Assembly: GCF_019880225.1 (NCBI RefSeq)
Contig: NZ_CP082284.1
Location: 496,001-560,000, forward strand
From: Halobaculum rubrum
Lineage (GTDB): Archaea; Halobacteriota; Halobacteria; Halobacteriales; Haloferacaceae
Direction: 5' to 3'
Length of the DNA stretch: 64,000 bases
Under the pieces are notes generated by a model that saw only the letters and a list, made by a program, of their open reading frames with translations, had not been told where the DNA came from and did no database searches. The first letter of the stretch is position 1; each line of letters begins with the position of its first letter. A program made the position numbers and the translations under genes. This document shows, in pieces, positions 38,885-45,681 of the stretch.

Positions 38885-40264
38885 ATGATCGCTATCGTCG
38901 GCGGCGGTATCGCGGGGTTGGCCGCCGCGCGTCGCCTGCGCGCGAACGGGCGCGAGGTGACGGTGTACGAGGCCGGCGGGGAGGACGCGCTGGGGGGACT
39001 CGCGCGCACCTACGGGACCGCGGGCGACGACATCGAGCAGTTCTACCACCACCTCTCGAAGTCCGAGGAGACGATCGTCGAGTTGGCCGAGGAACTGGGA
39101 CTGGGCGACCGCCTGGAGTGGCTCGTCGGAAAGAACGCGTACTACGTCGACGGCGTCGTCCACCCGCTGGACACCCCGTGGCAGATCCTCGCGTACCCGC
39201 ACATGAGCGTGTACGACAAGTTCCGCCTCGGGATGCTCACCCTCGAGATCGACGTTCGCGGCGGGATCCCCTCGTTCGACACGTACGACGACCTCGCGGA
39301 CTTCGAGGACGTGCCGATCAGGGACTTCCTGCTGGATCACACCTCCCGCGGCGTCTACGAGAACTTCTTCGAGCCGCTGCTGGACGCGAAGTTCGGCTCG
39401 CGAAAGGACGACGTGAGCGCGGCGTGGCTGCTCGGTCGGGTGAAGTTCCGCGGCGAGCGCGACCTGCTTCGCGGGGAGATCCTCGGCTACTTCGACGGCG
39501 GCTTCGCGCCCGTCATCGACGCACTGATCGACGACGTAGGACGCGAGCACATCGAGACGAACGCGCGTGTCGTCGACCTCGACACCGACGATGTCGGCGG
39601 CAACCTCGGCGGCGACGGGGGAGGAGACGGGGATATGATCGGGGACGGGAACGCCGGCACTGTCTCCACGATCACCGTCGAACAGGACGGCGAGACGCGA
39701 ACGGAGGCCGTCGACGGCGTCGTCGTCGCGACGATGCCGAACGTGCTGGAGGAGCTCACCGGCTACGGCTGCGACATCGACTTCCAGGGCGCCGTCTGTG
39801 CGGTCGCGACCATGGACGAGCCGCTGACGGACACCTACTGGCTCAACATCGGCCACGACGCCCCGTTCGGGGCGCTCATCGAGCACACCAACTTCGTGCC
39901 GCCAGAGCGCTACGGCGGCGACCACCTCCTGTACGTCGCAAGCTACGTCCAGTCGCCCGACGAGTGGCTCTGGGACGCGAGCGACGCGGAGGTGGAAGAG
40001 CGCTGGCTCGACCACGTCGAGGAACTGTTCCCGAACTTCTCGCGCGACTCGGTCTCACAGTTCCGCATCGCTCGCGCGCCGCGGGCGGCGCCCGTCTACG
40101 AGCGCGGCTATCTCGACATGGTCGTTCCCTACGACCTCGCGGACGAGGTCGCCGACGGGCTGTACTACGCGGGAATGGCCAGCGAGGCGCAGTACCCCGA
40201 ACGGAGCCTGAACGGCGGGGTCGTCGCGGGCTACGAGTGTGCCGACCGGATCCTCGGGAACTGA
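38885..40264 (+). CDS. FAD-dependent amine-oxidase-like oxidoreductase
   Basis: A 459-residue flavoprotein with an N-terminal FAD dinucleotide motif MIAIVGGGIAGLAAARRL and second-motif GGLARTYGTAG. Amine-oxidase/protoporphyrinogen-oxidase family features are the early Glu in VYEAGG, DGVVVATMPN and the C-terminal AGMASEAQYPERSLNGGVVA. An Asp/Gly-rich insert (residues ~235-260) breaks the middle. Haloarchaeal relatives act on carotenoids, UDP-sugars or porphyrins; the substrate is not decided. The gene is preceded by 92 bases with the divergent DUF5815-type gene. Confidence 0.85.
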   Translation: MIAIVGGGIAGLAAARRLRANGREVTVYEAGGEDALGGLARTYGTAGDDIEQFYHHLSKSEETIVELAEELGLGDRLEWLVGKNAYYVDGVVHPLDTPWQILAYPHMSVYDKFRLGMLTLEIDVRGGIPSFDTYDDLADFEDVPIRDFLLDHTSRGVYENFFEPLLDAKFGSRKDDVSAAWLLGRVKFRGERDLLRGEILGYFDGGFAPVIDALIDDVGREHIETNARVVDLDTDDVGGNLGGDGGGDGDMIGDGNAGTVSTITVEQDGETRTEAVDGVVVATMPNVLEELTGYGCDIDFQGAVCAVATMDEPLTDTYWLNIGHDAPFGALIEHTNFVPPERYGGDHLLYVASYVQSPDEWLWDASDAEVEERWLDHVEELFPNFSRDSVSQFRIARAPRAAPVYERGYLDMVVPYDLADEVADGLYYAGMASEAQYPERSLNGGVVAGYECADRILGN

Positions 40265-40446: not shown

Positions 40447-41712
40447 TTACGCGAGGTCGCGGATGCGCTCGACGACCTCCTCGGCGAACTCCGAGGTGGC
40501 GAGCTTCGTGGCGCCCTCGCGCTGCCGCTCGAGGTCGTAGGTGACGCGACCCTCGCTGATCTGCTGCTCGACGGCGTCGCGGACGAGGTCAGCGGCGTCG
40601 TTCCAACCGAGGTACTCGAGCATCTCGCGGCCCGAGAGGATCATCGCGGTCGGGTTGACCTTGTCCTCGCCGGCGTACTTGGGGGCGGAGCCGTGGACGG
40701 GCTCGGCCAGCGCCATGCCGTCGCCGTAGTTGACGCCGGGGGCGATGCCGAGGCCGCCGATCTGGGCGCCGGCGGCGTCGGACATGTAGTCGCCGTTGAG
40801 GTTCATCGTCGCGATGACGTCGTACTCGTCGGTCCGCGTGAGGATCTGCTGGAGCATGTTGTCGGCGATGCGGTCTTTGACAACCACGGTTCCCTCGGGC
40901 TGCTCGCCGTCGTGCTCGTCCCACAGCTGGTCCTCGGTGATGACGTCCTCGCCGTACTCCTCTTCGGCCAGTTCGTAGCCCCAGTCACGGAACGCGCCCT
41001 CGGTGAACTTCATGATGTTCCCCTTGTGGACGAGCGTGACCGAGTCGCGGTCGTCGTTGTTCACGGCGTAGTCGATGGCCTGGCGGATGAGGCGCTTTGA
41101 GCCGAACTCCGAGATGGGCTTGACGCCGATGCCGACCGGACCGTCGTGAATGGTCGAATCGAAGCCCATGTCGTCCTCGACGAACTCGCGGACCTCCTCG
41201 ACCTCGTCGGTGCCGGCCTCCCACTCGATGCCGGCGTACACGTCCTCGGTGTTCTCCCGGAACGTGATCATGTCCATCTCCTCGGGGTTCTTGACCGGCG
41301 ACGGGACGCCGTCGAGATAGTACGTCGGCCGGACGTTGGCGTACAGGTCGAGCGTCTTCCGCAGGGCGACGTTGAGCGAGCGGAAGCCGGATCCGACGGG
41401 CGTCGTCAGCGGTCCCTTGATGCCGACGCGGAACTCGCGGAACGCCTCGACGGTCTCCTCGGGGAGGTTCTCGTCGTACTTCTCGCGGGCGGACGCGCCG
41501 GCGTATACGCGCATCCACGCGATGGAACGGCCCGTCTCCTCGGCGGCCGCGTCCAGTACCGTCTGGGCCGCGGGGCCCACGTCGGTACCGATCCCGTCGC
41601 CGTGGATGATCGGGATGATCGGGTCGTCGGGAACGTCGAGTTCGCCGGTTTCCTCGTCGGCGAGGGTGATGACCTCGCCGTCCTCGGGACGTTCGGCAAT
41701 GTCGTAGCTCAT
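40447..41712 (-). CDS. icd: Isocitrate dehydrogenase (NADP+)
   Basis: A 421-residue TCA-cycle enzyme (isocitrate to 2-oxoglutarate). The N-terminus has PIIPIIHGDGIGTDVG; GPLTTPVGSGFRSLNVALRK binds substrate (the phosphorylatable-type Ser segment), and TFRENTEDVYAGIEW plus VHKGNIMKFTEGAFRDWGYE are family hallmarks. GSAPKYAGEDKVNPTAMILS carries the Lys-Tyr pair typical of NADP specificity. The start is ATG 41712; the longer upstream frame is not haloarchaea-like. The divergent fusion gene shares a 121-base intergenic region. Confidence 0.96.
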   Translation of the reverse strand: MSYDIAERPEDGEVITLADEETGELDVPDDPIIPIIHGDGIGTDVGPAAQTVLDAAAEETGRSIAWMRVYAGASAREKYDENLPEETVEAFREFRVGIKGPLTTPVGSGFRSLNVALRKTLDLYANVRPTYYLDGVPSPVKNPEEMDMITFRENTEDVYAGIEWEAGTDEVEEVREFVEDDMGFDSTIHDGPVGIGVKPISEFGSKRLIRQAIDYAVNNDDRDSVTLVHKGNIMKFTEGAFRDWGYELAEEEYGEDVITEDQLWDEHDGEQPEGTVVVKDRIADNMLQQILTRTDEYDVIATMNLNGDYMSDAAGAQIGGLGIAPGVNYGDGMALAEPVHGSAPKYAGEDKVNPTAMILSGREMLEYLGWNDAADLVRDAVEQQISEGRVTYDLERQREGATKLATSEFAEEVVERIRDLA

Positions 41713-41833: not shown

Positions 41834-43909
41834 GTGAACTGCCTGTTCGTCGGCGCTGGCGCCGTCGCGCGTCGGTACGCCGCCGGCCTCGCGGACTCGC
41901 CGCTGTCGCTGACGGCCGTCTGTGACCTCGACCGCGACCGAGCGGAGTCGTTCGCCGACGCCGTCGTCGACGGCGCCCGCCACGCGGACGACGACGGCAC
42001 CGACGCCGCCCAGCTCCGCGACACGCCCGCCGTCTATTCCGACCTCGACGCGATGCTCGACGCCGAGTCGGCCCCGATCGTCGTGAACCTCACGAGCCAC
42101 GCCGCCCACGCGCAGGTGACCCGGACCTGCCTGGAGGCGGGGAGACACGTCTTCTCCGAGAAGCCGCTGGCGCTCGATCCCGCGGCGGCCGACGACCTTC
42201 TCGCGCTCGCTCGCGATCGCGACCTCGCGCTCGGTTGTGCGCCGATCGCCCCCGACTGCGACGCTCAGTGCCACGCGCGGACGCTCCTGTCGGACGGCCG
42301 CCTCGGCGACGTGGGGCTCGTATACGCGACGGCCCACGTCGGCCGCGTGACCGAGTGGCACGAGCGACCCGACTCCTTCCTCTCGGTCGGCCCGCTGTTC
42401 GACGGCGCGGTGTACCCGCTGTCGGTCCTCGTCGACTGGTTCGGCCCGGTCGCGCGGGTTCGTTCGGCGGACGCCGTCGACGCCTGGCCCGAGCGCGAGG
42501 AGCGACGGCCGGAGGCGCCCGCGCACGTCGAGGCGACCGTCGAGTTCGTCGACGGGCCGGTCGTCTCCCTGCGCGCGAGCCTGTACGCCGACCACCGCAG
42601 CCGCGAGTTCTACTCGCTGGAGTGTCACGGGGACGACGGCACCCTCTATCTGGCCGACGCCGGCGCGATGGCCGCCGACCGCGACGCGGTCCGGGTCCGC
42701 GGCGGCGACCGCGACTCGGTGTCCGCGCCGCAGCCGCGCCCGCGACGCGAGCGCTCGCACCTCGACGGCCCCGAACGGCTCGCCCGGGCGGTCGACCGCG
42801 GCGACCGTCCGCGAGCGTCGGCGCGGCGCGCGGCACACGTCGTCGCCGTCTGCGCCGCGATCGAGGCGGAGGCGACCGAACCGGAGACGACAGCTTCGGA
42901 CGGGACGGGCCGTGCGATCGGCGGCATCGACACGAGCGGAACGAACGACCGCGACCTCGCCGCCCCCGTCGGTGTCGGTTCGCGATCGGCTCCGACCGTC
43001 CGACCGCCCGGCTCCGGGGTGCCCGACGGCGCCGCGCTCCGTCTGCCCCCGGTGGGATTCGGCTGCTCGCGCTACCGGGACGGCGAGTACGTCGACCGGG
43101 TCGAGTCGATCGGAACCGCGCTCGACGCGGGGTACCGCCTGCTCGACTCGGCGGAGCTGTACGGCAACGAGTCGCGGATCGGCGACCTGCTCGCGTCGCC
43201 GGGGACGCCCGATCGCGAGGGCCTGTTCCTCCTCGGGAAGGCGTGGAACACGAACCACAGCCACCTCCGGGAGGCGTGCGAGGGGTCGCTCTCGGAGCTG
43301 GGCGTCGACGCGTTCGACTGCTACGCGCTCCACTGGCCCGACGCCTGGGCGTATCAGGGACCCCTCCGCGAACTGGCCGAGCGCCCGGTCGACGAACAGG
43401 AAGCGCTGACGTTCCCGACCGACGACAGGGGGGAGCGTGCGACCGCCGACCGCGACCTCGCGGACACGTGGCGCGACCTCGCCGCGCTCCGCGAGGACGG
43501 GCTCGCCCGAACCATCGGCATCTGCAACGTCGACCTGGACGGTCTGCGTGACCTCGTCGCCGAGACGGGTATCCGGCCGGCGCTGGTGCAGGTGGAGCGG
43601 CATCCGTACGCGCCGAAGGCGGACCTCGTCGACTGGTGTCACGAGCGAGGGATCCGGGTGGTCGCACACTCGCCGCTGTCGGCGCCGGGGCTGCTGGAGG
43701 ACTCCCTCGTCACCGCGGTCGCCGAGGAGGCGGACGCGACGCCCGCAGAGGCCGTCCTCGCGTGGAACGTCGCCGCCGGCGTCGTCCCCATCCCCGCAAG
43801 TACGGACCCCGACCACGTCGTCTCGAACCTCGCGGCCGCGCGAGTCGAACTGACCACCGACCAGCGCGCGCGCCTCGACACGCTCGCCGACCCCGACTTC
43901 GAACGATGA
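41834..43909 (+). CDS. Fusion: Gfo/Idh/MocA oxidoreductase + aldo/keto reductase
   Basis: A 691-residue two-domain oxidoreductase. The N-terminal Rossmann fold starts FVGAGAVARRYAAGLADS, with EKPL (Glu109-Lys110-Pro111), the Gfo/Idh/MocA signature, and a C-terminal alpha/beta part to about 330. After a Ser/Gly/Thr linker (~350-400), residues ~404-691 are an aldo/keto reductase with the complete tetrad: Asp438 and Tyr443 (LLDSAELYGNE), Lys469 (LGKAWN) and His500 (LHWPD). Both enzymes use nicotinamide cofactors, so the fusion could channel an intermediate (inference). GTG 41834; ATGA overlap with the CDP-alcohol transferase. Confidence 0.88.
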   Translation: MNCLFVGAGAVARRYAAGLADSPLSLTAVCDLDRDRAESFADAVVDGARHADDDGTDAAQLRDTPAVYSDLDAMLDAESAPIVVNLTSHAAHAQVTRTCLEAGRHVFSEKPLALDPAAADDLLALARDRDLALGCAPIAPDCDAQCHARTLLSDGRLGDVGLVYATAHVGRVTEWHERPDSFLSVGPLFDGAVYPLSVLVDWFGPVARVRSADAVDAWPEREERRPEAPAHVEATVEFVDGPVVSLRASLYADHRSREFYSLECHGDDGTLYLADAGAMAADRDAVRVRGGDRDSVSAPQPRPRRERSHLDGPERLARAVDRGDRPRASARRAAHVVAVCAAIEAEATEPETTASDGTGRAIGGIDTSGTNDRDLAAPVGVGSRSAPTVRPPGSGVPDGAALRLPPVGFGCSRYRDGEYVDRVESIGTALDAGYRLLDSAELYGNESRIGDLLASPGTPDREGLFLLGKAWNTNHSHLREACEGSLSELGVDAFDCYALHWPDAWAYQGPLRELAERPVDEQEALTFPTDDRGERATADRDLADTWRDLAALREDGLARTIGICNVDLDGLRDLVAETGIRPALVQVERHPYAPKADLVDWCHERGIRVVAHSPLSAPGLLEDSLVTAVAEEADATPAEAVLAWNVAAGVVPIPASTDPDHVVSNLAAARVELTTDQRARLDTLADPDFER

Positions 43910-44745
43910 TCCCTGGCCCGGTCGCCGTCGCGACCGTGTTCGCGATCGCACTCACGATCGGCGCCGGAGCGATAACCGCCGGTTTCGGGTCCGAAACCGC
44001 CGGCGCGTGGGTGGTTCCGGCGGCCGTCGTCGTCGCCTGGGAGAGCGTGTTCTTCTTCCGTCGAACCGGGCTGAATCACCCGCCGGACGACCCTGACGCG
44101 CTCGCCGACGAGATCGGCGTCGCGAACGCGGTGACGCTCGGGCGGGGGCTGCTGTACGCCGGCGTCGCCGGGTTCGTCCTGACCGGGCCGCTCGCGGGAC
44201 CGTGGGCGTGGGCGCCGGCGCTGTTATACGGGTCGGGCGCGGCGCTGGATGCCGTCGACGGCGCGCTCGCGCGCCGACTCGGTCGTCAGACCGTCCTCGG
44301 GGAGAAGCTGGACATGGGGATCGACACCCTCGGGTTCCTCGTCGCGCCGCTGGCGGGGGTCGCGTGGGGTCGGATCCCGATCTGGTACCTGACGCTGTCG
44401 GTCGCGCGCTACCTGTTCAAACTGGGTCGCTGGCGCCGCGGTCGGCGCGATCTTCCCGTGTACGACCTCCCGTCGAGTCGGGTCCGTCGGCCGCTGGCAG
44501 GGGTCCAGATGGCGTTCATCGCCGTCGCGCTCGCGCCCGTGCTCCCGGCCTCGGTGGTCGCCGTGATCGCCGGCGTCGTCGTCGTCCCCTCGCTCGCGGT
44601 GTTCGTGCGCGACTACCTCGTCGTCGCGGGGCACCTCGGGGACAGCGATGACGATGCCAGAGAACCCGGCGGCGACGGGAGAGAGGACACGGGCGACGAG
44701 GGGCCGGCGAGCGCGAGCGACGTGGCCGGCGCCGGCGACGACTGA
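43906..44745 (+). CDS. CDP-alcohol phosphatidyltransferase family membrane protein
   Basis: A 279-residue integral membrane enzyme of the CDP-alcohol phosphotransferase superfamily. The signature D-x2-DG-x2-AR-x8-G-x3-D-x3-D is complete in DAVDGALARRLGRQ and GEKLDMGID. About six hydrophobic helices follow the usual pattern, and the C-terminal ~40 residues are an acidic hydrophilic tail. Members transfer a CDP-alcohol headgroup to another alcohol in polar lipid synthesis. The ATG overlaps the stop of the Gfo/AKR fusion, so the two are translationally coupled; the alcohol acceptor may be made by the fusion (inference). Confidence 0.9.
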   Translation: MIPGPVAVATVFAIALTIGAGAITAGFGSETAGAWVVPAAVVVAWESVFFFRRTGLNHPPDDPDALADEIGVANAVTLGRGLLYAGVAGFVLTGPLAGPWAWAPALLYGSGAALDAVDGALARRLGRQTVLGEKLDMGIDTLGFLVAPLAGVAWGRIPIWYLTLSVARYLFKLGRWRRGRRDLPVYDLPSSRVRRPLAGVQMAFIAVALAPVLPASVVAVIAGVVVVPSLAVFVRDYLVVAGHLGDSDDDAREPGGDGREDTGDEGPASASDVAGAGDD

Positions 44746-44817: not shown

Positions 44818-45681
44818 ATGCGAGTCATCTGCCACGGCGGCGCCGGCGGCGTCCCCGACGAACCGGAACCCCGACAGGCGGTCCTCGACGACGCCGCCGA
44901 GACCGGCGCGGACGAGTCGACCGTCGTCGACGCGGTCGTCTCGGCGGTCGAGGTGCTGGAGGAGTCGCCGCGCTTCAACGCCGGCTACGGCGGCGCGGTC
45001 CAGTCCGACGGCGTCGTCCGAACCGACGCGGGGATCATGACCGAGGAGCGCGAGGCCGGCGCCGTCGCGTCGATGCCGGGCGTCGCGAACGCGGCCGCGG
45101 TCGCGCGCGTCGTCATGGAGGAGACGCCCCACGTGTTCGTCTCGGGCGTCCACGCGGTCGACCTCGCCGACGACTTCGGGGTCGAGGTCGAGCGCGAACT
45201 GCTGACCGACGACGGACGCGACGACTACGAGGACGCCGACCCGCCGGCGCACGACGGCGGACCGCAGGCCCACCTGGAGTGGTTAGAGGAGAAGTTCGGC
45301 GGCCACGACACGGTCGGCGCGGTCGCACACGATCCCGGGGCGGACACCTTCGCGGCGTGCACCTCCACCGGCGGGCGCACGTTCGCGCTCGCGGGCCGCG
45401 TCGGCGACGTGCCACAGATCGGCTCGGGGTTCTTCTGTGCGCCCGCGGGCGGCGCCAGCGCCACCGGCGCCGGCGAGGACATCGCGAAGGCGACGCTCAC
45501 GCGACGGGCGGTCCGCCACCTGGAGGACGGGCTGGACGCGCAGGCCGCGGCCGACCGCGCGATCGCGGAGTTCGGCGAGCTGACCGGCTCCTCGGCGGGC
45601 GTCATCGTCCTCGACGGGGCGGGCGCGGGGTCGGCGTACAACTCCGAGGGGATGCAAACGAGCGTCGCGACCGACGAGTAG
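44818..45681 (+). CDS. Asparaginase/isoaspartyl peptidase (Ntn-hydrolase)
   Basis: A 287-residue plant-type L-asparaginase/isoaspartyl dipeptidase. The precursor self-cleaves before a Thr nucleophile, here Thr165 in GGHDTVGAVAHD. Upstream blocks are VICHGGAGGVPDEP and RFNAGYGGAVQSDGVVRTDAG; downstream STGGRTFALAGRVGDVPQIG and GEDIAKATLTRRA. The family usually has Gly before the catalytic Thr, while this has Asp164, which is frequent in archaeal members. It acts in the cytoplasm. It is preceded by 72 bases from the CDP-alcohol gene and could be in the same transcript. Confidence 0.9.
   Translation: MRVICHGGAGGVPDEPEPRQAVLDDAAETGADESTVVDAVVSAVEVLEESPRFNAGYGGAVQSDGVVRTDAGIMTEEREAGAVASMPGVANAAAVARVVMEETPHVFVSGVHAVDLADDFGVEVERELLTDDGRDDYEDADPPAHDGGPQAHLEWLEEKFGGHDTVGAVAHDPGADTFAACTSTGGRTFALAGRVGDVPQIGSGFFCAPAGGASATGAGEDIAKATLTRRAVRHLEDGLDAQAAADRAIAEFGELTGSSAGVIVLDGAGAGSAYNSEGMQTSVATDE

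Follow-up and report, generated by a model that had tools for sequence, protein, structure and literature searches.

The locus and its genes

A 64,000-nucleotide stretch of Halobaculum rubrum (contig NZ_CP082284.1, positions 496,001 to 560,000; hereafter the window) carries a gene whose 691-residue product joins two oxidoreductases in one chain: an N-terminal half of the Gfo/Idh/MocA family, called the Gfo half here, and a C-terminal aldo/keto reductase (AKR) half. The stop codon of this fusion gene overlaps the start codon of a gene for a CDP-alcohol phosphotransferase, referred to below as the transferase. The features are collected in Table 1. Where loci, genomes, contigs and genera must be told apart, they are given by handles that begin with L, G, C and g, respectively.

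A first-pass annotation of this DNA had described the two-oxidoreductase chain, intact active-site residues in both halves and the stop/start overlap. The open reading frame and its Pfam domains bear out the chain, the Glu-Lys-Pro motif and the AKR tetrad could both be assigned to definite residues, and the overlap was located as ATGA.

Table 1. Features of the fusion-transferase locus and its immediate neighbours (positions in the window)
Feature	Position	Strand	Remarks
Gfo/Idh/MocA-aldo/keto reductase fusion, 691 aa	41834..43909	+	GTG start; Pfam cut-offs exceeded in both domains
Gfo/Idh half, about residues 1-349	41834..42880	+	Rossmann domain; D31 after beta2; E109-K110-P111; D190-x3-Y194
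Linker, about residues 350-395	42881..43018	+	Low model confidence; pLDDT below 50 at residues 368-384
AKR half, residues 396-691	43019..43906	+	D438, Y443, K469, H500; A655 replaces the NADP-clamp lysine
ATGA overlap, fusion TGA with transferase ATG	43906..43909	+	4 bases
CDP-alcohol phosphotransferase, 279 aa	43906..44745	+	ATG at 43906; 8 predicted long helices; T141 after motif
NADP isocitrate dehydrogenase, divergent neighbour	40447..41712	-	Outside the unit; position shared with L038-L040
Asparaginase_2 family, downstream neighbour	44818..45681	+	Outside the unit; position shared with L038-L040

The fusion protein

Each domain of the fusion scores above its curated Pfam cut-off: residues 1-132 match GFO_IDH_MocA (PF01408, 62.4 bits; cut-off 24), residues 148-271 match GFO_IDH_MocA_C3 (PF22725, 43.3 bits; cut-off 27) and residues 407-685 match Aldo_ket_red (PF00248, 132.9 bits; cut-off 24). 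An AlphaFold2 model built from the family alignment has a pLDDT of 85.4 and a pTM of 0.85. The defining residues of the Gfo/Idh/MocA family are the lysine of an (E/Q)KP motif and a D-x3-(H/Y) pair. Both are present in the fusion, as are the Rossmann and alpha/beta C-terminal domains (Pfam, with fold matches up to Z 34.4). The C-terminal half has the (beta/alpha)8 domain and D-Y-K-H tetrad of the AKRs, which are eroded in the rows from genus g9.

A full-length fused frame could be read at each of 75 loci, some of which share a genome, and these frames represent 60 different sequences; residues were counted after 12 partial frames, from nine loci, had been removed. K110, P111, D190, Y194, D438, Y443, K469 and H500 are each kept in 59 of the 60, and position 109 holds E in 47 sequences and Q in 12. 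To judge by 75 full-length loci with conserved residues, the fused frame is not a chance frame.

The solved folds nearest to the Gfo half are 1,5-anhydrofructose reductase, levoglucosan dehydrogenase and glucose-fructose oxidoreductase (Z about 34), and its fold neighbours are mostly sugar and cyclitol enzymes. Sugar- or cyclitol-type chemistry is supported by these nearest structures. Levoglucosan dehydrogenase, 1,5-anhydrofructose reductase and the inositol dehydrogenases are among the best structural neighbours (Z 31.9 to 34.4), but their identity to the Gfo half is just 17-21%. The half stays far under the cut-off of the NCBIfam model for levoglucosan dehydrogenase (33.5 of 650 bits), and it does not reach that of the IolG (inositol 2-dehydrogenase) equivalog (34.4 of 355 bits). 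The fold is also shared with glucose-fructose oxidoreductase of Zymomonas (1h6d_A, Z 33.9) and aldose-aldose oxidoreductase of Caulobacter (5a03_C, Z 33.1), two enzymes that couple an oxidation to a reduction via one nicotinamide pool, with a single active site serving both steps. A D-x3-Y pair in place of D-x3-H is presumably a further likeness to them. Unlike these enzymes, the fusion adds a second, unrelated active site in its AKR half, and NAD(H) is its predicted cofactor. The AKR half itself has aldose, aldehyde, sugar-phosphate and AKR1C reductases as fold neighbours. It resembles 2,5-diketogluconate reductases, aldose-6-phosphate reductase and the AKR1 family in sequence, fold and the full D-Y-K-H tetrad; it differs from them in having Ala, Ser or Thr for the NADP-clamp lysine and a Gfo/Idh domain fused on.

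Cofactor residues

As a general rule, an aspartate that ends the second Rossmann strand favours NAD(H). Here, D31 at the end of beta2 is invariant in all 60 distinct fusions. In the AKRs, the lysine of the IPKS motif contacts the 2'-phosphate of NADP. At this position of the fusion, residue 655, lysine occurs in 0 of 60 sequences and is replaced by A (21), S (37) or T (2), so that the mark of an NADPH-dependent-type AKR is missing. Four stand-alone AKRs, paralogues from the window's genome, were aligned with the fusion, and all four keep the clamp lysine (two weaker AKR-like matches at C1:2897-2899 kb lie outside this alignment). As D31 is invariant and the clamp lysine is absent, both halves look NAD(H)-dependent, and these residues suggest NAD(H) as the cofactor of both. 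Either half could then regenerate the cofactor of the other, which makes a redox-neutral epimerisation or isomerisation likelier than net redox, as predicted from these residues. H661 was considered as a fusion-specific cofactor change and was rejected, since histidine stands there in AKR paralogues of the same genome too.

The CDP-alcohol transferase

The open reading frame list begins the transferase frame at a GTG upstream of the ATG start. CDP-OH_P_transf (PF01066) covers residues 72-224 with 51 bits (cut-off 22), and the AlphaFold2 model, again from the family alignment, has a pLDDT of 88.5, a pTM of 0.83 and eight long helices. The motif reads D115-x2-D118-G119-x2-A122-R123-x8-G132-x3-D136-x3-D140, followed by T141, and its form D-x2-D-G-x2-A-R-x8-G-x3-D-x3-D is complete in all 43 trimmed rows, a count that excludes one short row. 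Fold neighbours are PgsA, PIPS, IPCT-DIPPS and AF2299; all 19 entries listed by the structure search with Z of at least 8 belong to the CDP-alcohol phosphotransferase family.

The residue that follows the fourth aspartate bears on the acceptor. According to excerpts of PMC6506517, PIPS-type enzymes always have K or R directly after it (R94 in M. tuberculosis PgsA1). Among rows scoring at least 230 bits, the residue is T (46), S (5) or L (1), and in the 21 other transferase rows it is A, G, S or T; none of the 73 rows with a readable motif (76 rows in all, some from repeated genomes) has K or R. The paralogue L135 of the window's genome has R there. The missing basic residue favours a free acceptor, with R235 leaving some doubt, hinting that the transferase would use a free alcohol and not inositol phosphate. 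An inositol-phosphate acceptor was rejected on the same residue, although R235 leaves it some room. In addition, the NCBIfam model for archaetidylinositol phosphate synthase (NF040950) is matched with just 22 of 180 bits.

Archaetidylserine and phosphatidylserine synthases share with the transferase the uncharged residue after the fourth aspartate and F-x2-A-P at +4/+7/+8, a signature found also in the own-genome paralogue L134, which is serine-type-like, and in PDB 7b1k. Overall similarity to these synthases is nevertheless low, and the pssA model gives 19.9 of 107 bits.

Distribution and pairing

The fusion is matched in 74 of 148 genomes of the family at E 1e-40, some matches being partial; of 195 genomes sampled from the order, 34 match at E 1e-60. 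Halorubrum saccharovorum DSM 1137 (L069) is one carrier, and a laboratory strain of Haloferax volcanii probably lacks the gene. In a phylum sample, seven of 196 genomes match at E 1e-40 and none of these lies outside the window's order, although weaker or wider relatives are possible. The fusion is thus a patchily kept haloarchaeal gene that occurs across several families, and the search for fused versions in other archaea that the first-pass annotation had proposed found them in the 34 genomes of the order. At the cut-offs used, neither the family nor the order sample gave a convincing case of separately encoded Gfo and AKR versions.

The fusion and the transferase occur together. In the order sample, a transferase is found at E 1e-15 in 32 of 34 fusion genomes and in 50 of 161 others (Fisher p 3e-12, a value that overstates independence, the 195 genomes being related). 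Where both genes are on one contig, they lie less than 900 bp apart in 27 of 27 genomes; G151, whose fusion is broken by a contig end, falls outside this count. Transferases of at least 230 bits come from fusion genomes in 28 of 33 cases. A 4-base overlap, ATGA or GTGA, is present in 29 of 32 direct loci, or in 27 of 30 when two genomes counted twice (L051/L098 and L059/L085) are removed; the count covers loci in which AKR and transferase score more than 200 bits and the gap is below 450 bases. Across 57 distinct fusion loci, the transferase lies at most 1.5 kb downstream on the same strand in 43 and upstream within the same cluster in two, both from Halolamina. This set includes 23 loci hand-picked from the family and order lists, several of them as outliers, and the linkage in the order sample is less biased.

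In a tree of 73 transferase rows, from which identical and short ones had been removed, all 44 rows from loci with a Gfo half fall on one branch of 49 rows (support 97/92). The tree is midpoint-rooted, and this branch forms a clade only on condition that the root is not within it. The five other rows on it are nested inside; among them, L070 keeps the AKR half only and L131 an AKR remnant. The fusion-linked transferases thus appear to share one supported branch, with later losses. The functional tie between fusion and transferase that had been proposed from the overlap gains support from the co-occurrence, the conserved overlaps and the shared branch. Wide separation of the pair, which had been named as evidence against such a tie, occurs in a minority: of 34 fusion genomes, four have no more than a weaker transferase homologue, on a contig other than that of the fusion, and two (79% and 72% complete) have none detected; every same-contig pair is close.

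Some copies are broken or eroded. L066, L068 and L071 resemble frame breaks, that of L071 being near the linker, and L070, L076 and L131 resemble deletions. The Gfo half is lost in L070, the AKR half and the transferase are lost in L076, and the AKR remnant of L131 stands beside a transferase.

The wider cluster

Gene neighbourhoods were called with hidden Markov models on open frames, with no gene finder. Around the pair, in varying order, are genes for a zinc dehydrogenase (MDR), a PTPS-family protein, an S-adenosylmethionine (SAM)-dependent methyltransferase, GTP cyclohydrolase III (ArfA), a GT4 glycosyltransferase, a sulfatase-like protein, the DUF7475 membrane protein, a small membrane protein and PAP2. 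The small membrane protein is without a Pfam match and is what we take to be YdjM-like. Of the 57 fusion loci, 32 contain at least one of MDR, PTPS and methyltransferase, 16 contain ArfA and 10 contain GT4. In Haloferax, deletion of ArfA results in riboflavin auxotrophy (PMC8305020), so the neighbours in the cluster need not all share one pathway.

Nine fetched loci (L114-L117, L119-L123) carry transferase, MDR, PTPS, GT4 and methyltransferase in one direction with no fusion in the stretch examined. In the gaps of ten fusion-less loci, inspection of the open frames by eye found no obvious Gfo or AKR gene as a replacement. As these loci keep the cluster, the fusion looks like an addition to a pre-existing one. 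In the window's genome the cluster is split: DUF7475, PTPS, GT4 and methyltransferase stand together at C1:1310116-1313644 (L141, G000), far from the fusion pair, and the dehydrogenase of the cluster is at about C1:913-914 kb.

Two side observations concern these surroundings. An FAD oxidoreductase at window positions 38885-40264 (+), matching NCBIfam PRK07233 ('hypothetical protein') with 514 bits against a cut-off of 252, stays beside icd in L038-L040. Genes of the cluster's sulfatase-like family occur in tandem elsewhere, with four copies at G028:C17:464241-467936 and three at G249:C1:1507516-1510282.

Proposed function and its alternatives

Tentatively, and with rather less than even confidence, we propose that the fusion recycles its own NAD(H) while modifying a sugar, polyol or cyclitol, and so makes the acceptor for the transferase, which would build a polar-lipid headgroup. 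Here, the Gfo half would use NAD+ to oxidise a free polyol or sugar at one hydroxyl, and the AKR half would spend the NADH so made on reducing the resulting carbonyl, or its isomer. The outcome would be an epimer or isomer with no net redox. The translationally coupled transferase would then take this probably unphosphorylated product as its acceptor alcohol and link it to CDP-archaeol, giving a non-universal haloarchaeal headgroup. The linked methyltransferase and, where present, the glycosyltransferase could decorate it. Net epimerisation, CDP-archaeol as donor and the existence and nature of the lipid are what we infer. The earlier suggestion of a two-step sugar or polyol redox that makes a lipid acceptor keeps its sugar or cyclitol chemistry, backed by the Gfo half, and its net redox is refined here to a redox-neutral conversion.

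Several observations weigh against this proposal. The fold neighbours of the AKR half are broader than those of the Gfo half, with aldehyde and steroid reductases beside sugar enzymes, and genus g9 (L073-L075) retains the Gfo half, the transferase and the dehydrogenase but has an eroded AKR half (read in the frames of L073 and L075, and for L074 by low AKR scores); the AKR half is therefore dispensable in that genus. Twelve of the 57 fusion loci are without a transferase in the stretch examined, four of them with less than 2.8 kb of downstream sequence. In G223, G236, G246 and G264, the only transferase homologue is a weaker one carried by a different contig, and the homologues from G223, G236 and G264 (L100, L101 and L102) fall outside the fusion branch. 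The transferase relatives in 50 of 161 fusion-less genomes mean that the fusion is unnecessary for the chemistry of that family. Finally, the solved fold nearest to the transferase is a PGP synthase, and the arginine R235, present in all 29 rows compared, might yet accommodate a phosphate group.

The two halves might instead carry out net redox, that is, two successive oxidations or reductions (of a dicarbonyl or keto-sugar, for example) with separate cofactor pools, and feed the transferase all the same. The linkage evidence serves this version equally, and the AKR half weakly matches the NCBIfam 2,5-diketogluconate reductases; the DkgA and DkgB equivalogs, however, are far from reached (142.6 of 425 and 136.4 of 327 bits), and the lack of the clamp lysine in every distinct fusion, set against its presence in the four paralogues, makes a biosynthetic NADPH reductase less likely. 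We consider net redox unlikely. A catabolic or detoxifying bifunctional oxidoreductase, standing beside the transferase for historical reasons, would explain L060, L077, L078, L079, L086, L090, L093 and L094, which have no transferase within several kb. It would leave unexplained the overlap conserved in 29 of 32 loci, the single transferase branch and an association kept across several gene orders, and it is unlikely. It is improbable, too, that the fusion makes a sugar or cyclitol for the GT4 enzyme, as acceptor or modified sugar, with the transferase acting in another step: GT4 is present in 10 of the 57 loci and stays with DUF7475, PTPS and the methyltransferase at the other site in the window's genome, but the remaining 47 loci are without it in the stretch examined and the conserved overlap involves the transferase, not GT4.

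The transferase could also be a PGP synthase, with the linked methyltransferase making PGP-Me and the fusion incidental. Besides the nearest solved fold, this draws on Haloferax volcanii, for which Table 7 of PMC8305020 names HVO_1136 pgsA1 and describes HVO_1135 as a SAM-dependent methyltransferase, and on L127 and L128, in which a same-family transferase and a methyltransferase adjoin, facing each other. From the neighbour order in L127 and L128 and from that table, HVO_1136 is probably a fusion-less relative of the window's transferase, the latter being on the fusion-linked branch; gene order and spacing likewise suggest Haloferax as the identity of genus g28 and HVO_1136 as its transferase. 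PGP-Me is the dominant headgroup across Halobacteria, according to excerpts of PMC6423904, whereas a profile built from 23 transferase rows matches just 82 of the 195 order-sample genomes at E 1e-15, so the transferase is not likely the PGP synthase. A same-genus genome that is 99% complete, G004, has no transferase at E 1e-15. There is no PGP synthase model among the three NCBIfam matches of the transferase and no K or R after the fourth aspartate. Weakened by the patchy distribution, in place of a near-universal one, and by the residue signature, this assignment was rejected as decidedly improbable.

Returning to the redox-neutral, acceptor-making fusion, the pair may be the headgroup end of an undescribed lipid pathway that includes MDR, PTPS, GT4, methyltransferase, DUF7475 and, in places, GTP cyclohydrolase III. 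In such a pathway a free cyclitol, sugar or aminopolyol, or possibly even a moiety derived from GTP, would be epimerised or isomerised, joined to archaeol, and methylated or glycosylated. We regard this extension as doubtful. A lead on halopterin gave nothing to the point in a literature search, and the open-licence literature held no evident paper on the fusion or on DUF7475.

Significance

The biosynthesis of haloarchaeal polar-lipid headgroups is partly resolved (PMC8305020), and HVO_1136, the probable Haloferax relative of the transferase, is described there as having 'only distant partial matches' to characterised proteins (Table 7). The fused architecture and the coupled pair appear to be new; the enzyme families themselves are known. 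The result argues against PGP synthase as a name for this transferase. A coupled enzyme pair with predicted self-contained redox is a small, testable entry into unassigned archaeal membrane chemistry, and fused oxidoreductases beside a headgroup-type transferase hint at an undescribed pathway for a polar-lipid headgroup.

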